DNA of 33,984 nucleotides from Deltaproteobacteria bacterium (GTDB lineage: Bacteria > Desulfobacterota > Syntrophia > Syntrophales > UBA2210). Below the pieces are notes generated by a model that was not told the origin of the DNA, ran no database searches, and saw nothing but the letters and a program-made list of their open reading frames with translations. The position numbers and the translations under genes are program-made. This document shows, piece after piece, positions 31,549 to 33,984 of the stretch (position 1 is its first letter; every line of letters starts with the position of its first letter). The DNA lies in assembly GCA_019313695.1 (NCBI GenBank), contig JAFDAS010000042.1:1-33984 (forward strand), written 5' to 3'.

Positions 31549-32037
31549 TCACAGACTCAGGTCTATTATCAGTTGCGCGATACCTTCCATATCGTTGATG
31601 TCGAGACAGGGAACATCAATCGCCATTTGTTTATCGCTGGCGACGGCAATCAGGTTGTCTTCCCTGGAACAGAGCATGTCCCGCTTCAGGGTGGCGCGAA
31701 AGACCTCTATCTTTGGATATGGATTTCCCTTGAATCCCTCCGTAATGATAATATCCACATCATGGATGTACCTGTCCCTCAACTCTTCAATTCCAGGGTT
31801 TTTCTCAGAATTTTCAATGACAGCAATCTGACCGGGAGATGACATGACGGTCATCCGCGCGCCCGCTTTCCTGTGGCGCCAGCTGTCCTTTCCCTCGCGG
31901 TCGATATCGAATCCACGGTTACTGTGCTTGATTGTGGCTACTCGCCAGCCCTTCCGTGTCAGTTCCGGTATTACCTTTTCGATCAGGGTGGTCTTTCCGG
32001 AACCTGATTTGCCCACGATAGATACTACAGGGATCAT
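31549..32037 (-). CDS. mobB: Molybdopterin-guanine dinucleotide biosynthesis adaptor protein MobB
   Basis: MIPVVSIVGKSGSGKTTLIEKVIPELTRKGWRVATIKHSNRGFDIDREGKDSWRHRKAGA; IITEGFKGNPYPKIEVFR. Start at 32037 gives a 4-nt overlap with the upstream gene. Confidence 0.93.
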   Translation of the reverse strand: MIPVVSIVGKSGSGKTTLIEKVIPELTRKGWRVATIKHSNRGFDIDREGKDSWRHRKAGARMTVMSSPGQIAVIENSEKNPGIEELRDRYIHDVDIIITEGFKGNPYPKIEVFRATLKRDMLCSREDNLIAVASDKQMAIDVPCLDINDMEGIAQLIIDLSL

Positions 32038-32813
32038 GTTTTCTCCAGACGTTTTATTTTCCTGTCTATAAAGCGGAGGCAGGGACGCATGTTTGGCGTG
32101 CCGCCGCCCTCCGAGATAATCTGCATGATCTTGCGGTGGTCCAGTATCGCGGAGCCGCCGAGATGTGTCACCGGAGTCCCCGCGAACGCCTCGCCGCACA
32201 TGGGTGTGGATGGCCCCAGTATCGTTACGTGTCTCGGATTGCCAAGTCTGTTGAGAATTTCCTCAATGGTATTATTAAGGATCGAAGTGGCGGTAATTAT
32301 GGCTACACTGCATTCCGCAAGGATCTTGTCGCTGTCTTTCCGGTCGAGGATCTCCTCTATCCGGTTCGGATCTTTTTCCATGATGCGGAGATTTGCACCC
32401 GTTTTTCTTATTGGTTCCACAAGGGGGCCAAAATATCCCACCATGGCCACCCTGTCCGCGGGGGACAGGTTCATCAGAGCGATGGAATCCCTTTCCGGTT
32501 CTTCGGCAATATCAGGGCAGATTATCGCGTTTACCGTAGCCAGACCCAGCGCCTTTTCCAGGGGATTTCTGCCATTGACCAGAAGGTCTAAAAGTTCTGA
32601 AGCATCAGACCCTGCCAGCGTACCTGCTTTGTCGAGAGTCCCGCAACCGGGGGGCAGTTCATTTCTCAGCAGGGCGGACAGGCCCGGCCTGTCCCCTTCC
32701 AGCAGCACCCCGACATAACCCAGGCCGATTCTTACTTCTTCAACATGAAGTTTCCGGCTGCGGCCTGACAGGTATTCATGGATGTGCCGTGATATATCGT
32801 CCGCCTTTATCAT
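32034..32813 (-). CDS. DUF364/DUF4213 domain protein
   Basis: MIKADDISRHIHEYLSG...; MVGYFGPLVEPIRKTGANLRIMEKDP; TILGPSTPMCGEAFAGTPVTHLGGSAI. Start 32813 supported by GGAAGGA RBS (ORF track extends to 32906 into a repeat). Confidence 0.82.
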   Translation of the reverse strand: MIKADDISRHIHEYLSGRSRKLHVEEVRIGLGYVGVLLEGDRPGLSALLRNELPPGCGTLDKAGTLAGSDASELLDLLVNGRNPLEKALGLATVNAIICPDIAEEPERDSIALMNLSPADRVAMVGYFGPLVEPIRKTGANLRIMEKDPNRIEEILDRKDSDKILAECSVAIITATSILNNTIEEILNRLGNPRHVTILGPSTPMCGEAFAGTPVTHLGGSAILDHRKIMQIISEGGGTPNMRPCLRFIDRKIKRLEKT

Positions 32814-32881
32814 CGTGCTGTCCTTCCAGGAGAGGCCGTATGTATTTGCGAAGCAGTCGAGCAGAACAAAAAATGATGGGT

Positions 32882-33000
32882 TCGTAAAAAGTCCCAAAAA
32901 CGTCATGCCGGACTTGATCCGACATCCAGAACATATTGAAATTACTGGATTCCGGCTTCCGCCGGAATGACAAAAAATGGTGTTTTCTGACTTTTTACGA
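32882..33000. repeat. MITE-like dispersed repeat with inverted ends TCGTAAAAAGTC / GACTTTTTACGA
   Basis: 32882-32893 and 32989-33000; internal inverted GTCATGCCGG / CCGGAATGAC; minus strand encodes the familiar 'FRRKPESS' repeat peptide. Confidence 0.8.
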
Positions 33001-33203
33001 GTGCATCAAAAATGATTATACCAAAAAAGTGCGCGCAGGCAAGGATAAAAGGGATAAAAGGGGTTTGGCGTAAATCCCAGCGGTTTAGCCGTAATAATCT
33101 CAAACAGTTAAATTTTTGAATGCGGCTGAAGCAAATTTTTCACGGAGCCGTCACAGGAAATATCATCAATTATTTATCAAAATAACCTTGACATTTCCCT
33201 GGG

Positions 33204-33363
33204 TGATTGTTAGGAGCTACTTTGCATGACCGCTGGTCATTTTTAATATCATTCTCTCCGATCCGCTTTTTCTAAAGGACATATTCCATGAAGGGCGGAC
33301 AATGGGTATGACTGGAAACGGTCATGCCTCCCATGTCTGGAAAGGGGACCAACTAAGCAATCA
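33204..33363 (+). ncRNA. Candidate molybdenum/tungsten cofactor (Moco/Tuco-like) riboswitch leader of formate dehydrogenase
   Basis: GGTATGACTG-GAAA-CGGTCATGCC (10-bp stem, GNRA loop) inside GGACAATGGG/CCCATGTCT, then GTCTGGAAAGGGGACCAACTAAGC; possible closing stem TGATTGTTAG (33204-33213) / CTAAGCAATCA (33353-33363). Confidence 0.55.
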
Positions 33364-33399
33364 TGTTCTTATCAAAACTTTAAGGAAGGAGTGCATATT

Positions 33400-33984
33400 A
33401 TGGATGTTAGCAGAAGAGGTTTCTTGAAGATCTCCGGCACAGCGCTGATGGCGAGCGGAATAGGCATTAATCTGAAGCCTGTGGCAGCTCATGCGCAGCC
33501 GTTAAAGATCAAATACGCTAAAGAAACCACAACGATCTGTCCTTACTGCGCAGTTGGATGCGGGATCATTGTATCCACCAGGGGCGGAAAAGTCATAAAT
33601 ACAGAGGGAGACCCGGATCATCCTGTAAACAGAGGTTCGCTCTGCACAAAGGGTGGTTCCATTTACCAGCTTTCGCAGAATAAGAATCGACTTGACAAGC
33701 CGCTCTACAGGGCGCCTTATTCCGACAAGTGGGAAGAAAAATCCTGGGAATGGATGATCGAGAGGATTGCCCGGAATGTAAAAAAGAGCAGAGACAATAG
33801 CTTCGTGACAAAAAACAGCAAAGGACAGGTGGTCAACCGCGCGGATGGCATAGCATCCGTCGGCAGCGCCGCCATGGATAACGAAGAGTGCTTCATTTAT
33901 CAAAAATTCTTGAGGGGGTTGGGCCTGGTATATATTGAACATCAGGCCCGTATCTGACACTCCGCTACTGTTGCGGCTCTGGCA
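33400..33984 (+). CDS. Tat-exported formate dehydrogenase major (alpha) subunit, selenocysteine-containing, truncated by window end
   Basis: Tat signal MDVSRRGFLKISGTALMASG; 4Fe-4S motif CPYCAVGCGIIV...GSLCTKG; QARI-TGA-HSATVAALA with UGA at 33955-33957 at the conserved Sec position. RBS AAGGAAGGAG. Confidence 0.92.

Follow-up and report, generated by a model that had tools for sequence, protein, structure and literature searches.

The leader of the formate dehydrogenase (FDH) gene at the right-hand end of a contig from a Syntrophales-type deltaproteobacterium appears highly structured, and this raises the question as to whether it belongs to the Moco/Tuco class of riboswitches and, if so, which metal cofactor it recognizes and in which direction it switches the gene. 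A search of the whole stretch of DNA analysed here (33,984 nucleotides; hereafter the window) with the Rfam covariance models recovered a full-length match to RF01055 at 33244-33363 of the plus strand with 75.4 bits (E 1.1e-16), well above the curated cut-off of 36 bits. This is the sole Rfam match in the window, and a role for the minus strand was rejected, the match there being at chance level only. A sequence-only reading of this DNA had proposed the same class and asked for this search, which bore it out; the nested stems, the GAAA tetraloop (33315-33318), the GCCTCCC motif (33326-33332) and GTCTGGAAAGGGGACCAACTAAGC (33335-33358) that it had pointed to are likewise all present. From the interval that it gave, 33204-33363, the right end was retained, but the left end lies 40 nucleotides too far out, the true start being 33244; a long P1 beginning at 33204 falls outside the family fold, as 33204-33243 comprise the promoter and a small palindrome. 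The Moco-II RNA is also associated with Moco genes. It is a Moco-associated candidate like the window element, yet its covariance model (RF01713) does not match the window, and we rejected this identity; in a table entry Moco-II is given as a candidate RNA of Proteobacteria (PMC2864571). In itself the window element is ordinary, and it fits cleanly into a known class.

Stems P1, P2, P4 and P5 and the conserved junction nucleotides are present in the window and supported by covariation. The P1 core of the family corresponds to 33254-33259 with 33344-33349, the receptor positions in P2 agree with the RF01055 model, and the model positions of P3 are deleted in the match (Table 1). The window genome and relatives of its order supplied 46 copies for an alignment, and in every copy just four nucleotides separate P2 and P4; therefore P3 is absent from all 46, each of which also bears the GAAA loop on P4. 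When the RF01055 structure minus P3 was placed on this alignment, which is not independent of RF01055 because it includes sequences whose matches that model selected, 86% of the cells were paired, 23 pairs were changed on both sides, and the covariation score was 0.39 as against 0.19 in shuffles. None of 500 shuffles equalled the real alignment on any measure, and structures slid along it as a control dropped to 42-50% paired. The lack of covariation named earlier as a possible refutation thus failed to appear: covariation is strong among these homologous leaders, which mostly precede the same FDH. Three outer pairs of the P1 model (33246/33357, 33249/33354 and 33254/33349) are unpaired in the window, and some FDH leaders elsewhere (L066, L080) are without the aptamer or have damaged-looking remains of it, as might be expected if the window element were a decayed, non-functional remnant; nevertheless, we regard this as highly improbable, given that the core helices are all intact at 75 bits, the family covaries, and the aptamer is kept in 41 of the 149 related genomes searched and at 95% FDH identity. 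As to the two leaders in which the aptamer looks decayed or lost, that of L080 has neither the GGAAAC nor the CCTCCC signature, and that of L066 retains a hairpin that resembles P1 and has a T run.

Table 1. Features of the window and the compact relatives of its riboswitch
Feature	Coordinates	Strand	Basis or remark
MobB (ORF as listed; true start probably nearer 32030)	31549-32199	-	PF03205, E 7.9e-48
DUF4213/DUF364 protein, annotated as putative heavy-metal chelation; adjoins MobB, divergent from FDH	32034-32906	-	
Likely promoter: -35 TTGACA (33188-33193), 17-nt spacer, extended -10 TGTTAGGAG (33208-33216)	33188-33216	+	conserved block
Palindrome ATGACCGCTGGTCAT between promoter and aptamer	33226-33240	+	
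RF01055 Moco/Tuco riboswitch aptamer, P3-less	33244-33363	+	75.4 bits, E 1.1e-16; covariation
P1 5' strand CUCUCC	33254-33259	+	partner 33344-33349 (aptamer) or ribosome-binding site (alternative)
P2 with internal tetraloop-receptor-like bulge (CUAA 33272-33275, AUG 33288-33290)	33262-33299	+	model alignment
P4, capped by GAAA tetraloop (33315-33318)	33304-33329	+	
P1 3' strand GGGGAC (33344-33348 paired)	33344-33349	+	
Ribosome-binding site GGAAGGAG	33384-33391	+	alternative fold: predicted pairing with 33250-33259
Formate dehydrogenase alpha subunit, N-terminal part, cut by contig end	33400-33984	+	TIGR01553 best, PF04879
Compact Moco-like RNAs, coordinates given	L122:444-516; L126:3853-3925; L123:56-144; L117:615-705		
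Compact Moco-like RNAs, further loci: L156-L161, L165-L167, L171-L173, L175, L176, L185			

Upstream of the aptamer, TTGACATTT and a TTG-TA block line up in seven of the eight close leaders compared; the -10 element of the window is a poor match and was omitted by a simple promoter scan. We infer that transcription starts near 33223, about 30 nucleotides ahead of P1, which places the start upstream of the aptamer and therefore removes the conflict between P1 and a TTGACA-derived start lying within it that had been raised earlier. The palindrome ATGACCGCTGGTCAT is partly kept in the close relatives L061 and L064, and may serve as an operator or form a hairpin at the 5' end.

The gene downstream proved, as had been read from the sequence, to be an FDH; it encodes the alpha subunit and has a TGA (selenocysteine) codon in frame. 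It starts 37 nucleotides beyond the aptamer, providing the Mo/W-cofactor gene context typical of RF01055, and its TGA (33955-33957; context HQARI-U-HSATVAAL) is followed by a further 27 bases before the contig ends. Contig C146 (L144) of the same genome overlaps and continues the gene, the frame of which appears to shift there, an effect that may stem from an assembly error. The window genome contains a tRNA-Sec, and SECIS_3 was matched, below its cut-off, at the TGA of FDH homologues. MobB indeed lies nearby, and the DUF4213/DUF364 protein next to it is possibly a tungsten/molybdenum handling gene.

With respect to the ligand, the P3-less form was linked to the tungsten cofactor by Regulski et al. 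2008, 17 of the 19 organisms that have P3-less RNAs also possessing tungsten-cofactor genes, and the relationship of P3 to the metal being a correlation (PMC2408646). The window shares with this Tuco form stems P1, P2, P4 and P5, the GAAA loop with its receptor, the absence of P3, a tungsten-enzyme gene context and a position in the 5' leader; the exact pairing of the FDH with a P3-less RNA goes unmentioned in the searched portion of the text of that paper (PMC2408646). Among the relatives, the named ones of which are mostly Syntrophales-type metagenome genomes, tblastn placed the same FDH downstream of 32 of 45 copies and AOR-type operons downstream of six, and HMM searches of the remaining seven recovered one AOR (L028), one diheme protein (L011), and a WtpA-like (L008) and a TupA-like protein (L054), these last two below the HMM cut-offs. 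Viewed from the side of the gene, 21 of 80 FDH homologues in the named genomes have the RNA upstream by model R1, with three of the 21 being weak (L093, L117, L123). The window genome itself carries a second P3-less copy ahead of an iron-sulfur/AOR operon, a WtpA above cut-off and six AORs, and hence displays the tungsten metabolism expected of a host of the Tuco subclass; no ModA above cut-off was found in it. A third RF01055 match in this genome (C121, 16.6 bits) was taken as chance. The second riboswitch is separated from its AOR operon by a short reading frame (L005:5766-6033), and a similar frame occurs in L028 (MVIS...YFPFYTFVCLI); these may encode a small protein.

Because of the P3-less form, the regulon, the combination of WtpA and six AORs with no ModA, and the 17 of 19 organisms noted above (PMC2408646), the tungsten-pterin cofactor is the likelier ligand of the window riboswitch, failing which the molybdenum cofactor would be. 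Loss of P3 is by itself no proof of tungsten, because P3-less RNAs are also found in another class, where they lie ahead of a ModA-like protein (L182) and of a gene of the XDH family (L157). These RNAs, together with the correlative nature of the link between P3 and metal (PMC2408646) and the description of WtpA-type transporters as carrying both tungstate and molybdate, would fit recognition of the molybdenum cofactor, or of both cofactors without discrimination; the transporter and enzyme complement of the window genome and the order-level regulon, with its AORs and tungstate-type transporter proteins, render this less likely.

The expression platform of the window was approached through predicted folds of the leader. 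An intrinsic terminator was rejected in this role, there being none between the aptamer and the ATG. In the minimum-energy fold of the free leader (-57.5 kcal/mol; enforcing the aptamer gives -49.4) 33244-33259 are paired to 33384-33400, which covers GGAAGGAG and the AUG, with P2 and P4 staying in place. The long-range closing stem of the sequence-only reading hence exists in the predicted fold, but not as P1, since its left arm joins the ribosome-binding site and start codon. Once P1 is imposed, the ribosome-binding site of the window costs 2.5 instead of 5.4 kcal/mol to open; over 19 leaders this cost is lower in 13 and higher in one. Specific release of this site by P1, although evident in the window and in some of the close leaders, is not general, other downstream stretches being released equally on average (mean percentile 0.57). 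When covariation between the 5' flank and the ribosome-binding region was tested over the 19 leaders by an exchange of 5' and 3' partners, the swapped partners were nearly as good (p 0.13, not significant), and this covariation was set aside as proof of a switch. From the predicted folds, the window riboswitch probably controls translation, and the platform looks like a competition between P1 and a ribosome-binding site about 35 nucleotides downstream of it, whereas in the Tuco form that site lies inside P1.

A further view of polarity came from relatives below the Rfam cut-off. The FDH leaders of L122 and L126, which are more distant, fold into an RNA of 71 nucleotides and three stems that keeps the Moco core (UCC-GA, AAGG..CC-CGCC-AU, AAAGGAAGC) and has no GAAA loop or receptor. 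A model built from these two (R2) detects L123, to which RF01055 gives 35.1 bits, one bit short of its cut-off, and picks up more copies among 395 genomes of the phylum. The compact RNAs, of 71-90 nucleotides, are P3-less, devoid of the GAAA loop and receptor, and found in other Desulfobacterota; several score 20-32 bits with RF01055, below its cut-off, and they are unmatched by Moco-II RF01713. This branch was found neither in the open-licence literature searched nor above the Rfam cut-off. Thirteen aligned copies covary, with none of 500 shuffles reaching the real value on four measures and one of 500 on a fifth, and with doubly changed pairs at 6/6 in P2 and 6/8 in P4, in an alignment fitted to the model structure, which favours this result. 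The rebuilt model R3 has matches in 10 of 17 genomes of one class, the weaker ones being largely full-size RNAs; weak R2 matches at L162-L164 and the R3 match at L194 were put down to chance, as no tungsten-type gene or shared terminator was seen there. The downstream genes, assigned by HMM for those tested and from the first residues for others, with L185 outside the assignments, are AOR or iron-sulfur/AOR operons, FDH and one NuoE/NuoF-like pair. L167 has two compact modules in tandem. No aptamer match was obtained in the FDH leaders L118, L121 and L125, though their ends are terminator-like. Across lineages one FDH gene has a full-size, a compact or no such leader, and this, together with the compact branch, makes a less ordinary picture than the window element by itself.

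In 18 of 18 compact copies the 3' strand of P1 is the 5' arm of a predicted intrinsic terminator, with six or seven of its seven bases paired in the hairpin downstream, after which a T run usually comes. Where this strand is altered (GGAUGCC in L176, GGAAACC in L185), the other hairpin arm is seen by eye to alter too. Such sharing would amount to an ON architecture. Within the class that R3 covered, several P3-less RNAs of full size ahead of a ModA-like protein or porins have terminators whose loops are complementary over 9-12 pairs to the CCCGUGUUUGG region of the aptamer (L177, L182, L187, L189, L190), an arrangement that suggests an OFF architecture. At L157:882-1288 (minus strand) a tandem full-size pair lies upstream of the XDH-family gene and runs divergently to a compact copy that precedes an AOR. 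We tentatively propose, at somewhat less than even confidence, that the compact branch switches tungsten-enzyme genes ON at the level of transcription, that several full-size P3-less RNAs ahead of other genes in the same genomes carry OFF-type terminators, and that the FDH switch of the window shares the ON polarity by way of its ribosome-binding site.

In the mechanism that we envisage for the window, CUCUCC of the P1 5' strand would have two alternative partners, GGGGA (33344-33348), which closes the aptamer, and GGAAGGAG of the ribosome-binding site. In the absence of ligand the latter pairing would hide this site and the start codon; ligand would stabilise P1 and free them, and therefore the enzyme would be made only when the cofactor is present. 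For ON polarity in the window we see an even chance. The same riboswitch might instead be OFF, with the cofactor stabilising P1 and a coaxial outer stem (about 33244-33254/33389-33400) such that the ribosome-binding site stays hidden: even with the aptamer enforced the outer stem partly covers that site (GAG) and the AUG, and OFF-type terminators accompany some full-size P3-less RNAs of another class. The E. coli moaA riboswitch, which has the aptamer core in common with the window and was reported in 2008 to act translationally, is also an OFF switch, sensing Moco and not Tuco (PMC2408646); unlike the window, however, it has a P3 and its ribosome-binding site within P1, and by RNA-seq it was reported in 2025 to act through transcription termination (PMC12121620). 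Given that the site in the window lies outside P1 and opens more easily once P1 forms, that compact relatives ahead of orthologous FDH/AOR genes have the ON architecture, and that it appears harder to explain why an enzyme should be repressed while its cofactor is abundant, we consider OFF polarity a possible but less probable outcome. Returning to the ON reading, we hold with good confidence the composite picture of a P3-less Moco/Tuco riboswitch in the leader of a selenocysteine-containing FDH that most likely senses the tungsten cofactor, probably acts translationally and may well be an ON switch. Membership of the family, the loss of P3, covariation and gene context are shown by computation, and the ligand, the translational step and every polarity are inferred from these and from the sequence.

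These observations tie an FDH common in Syntrophales-type bacteria to the probable direct sensing of its own metal cofactor, and suggest that the cofactor can turn on enzymes that use it and turn off some other genes of the regulon. The comparative set offers material on how Moco/Tuco RNAs distinguish metals, and the compact aptamers would be convenient members of the family for in vitro work.
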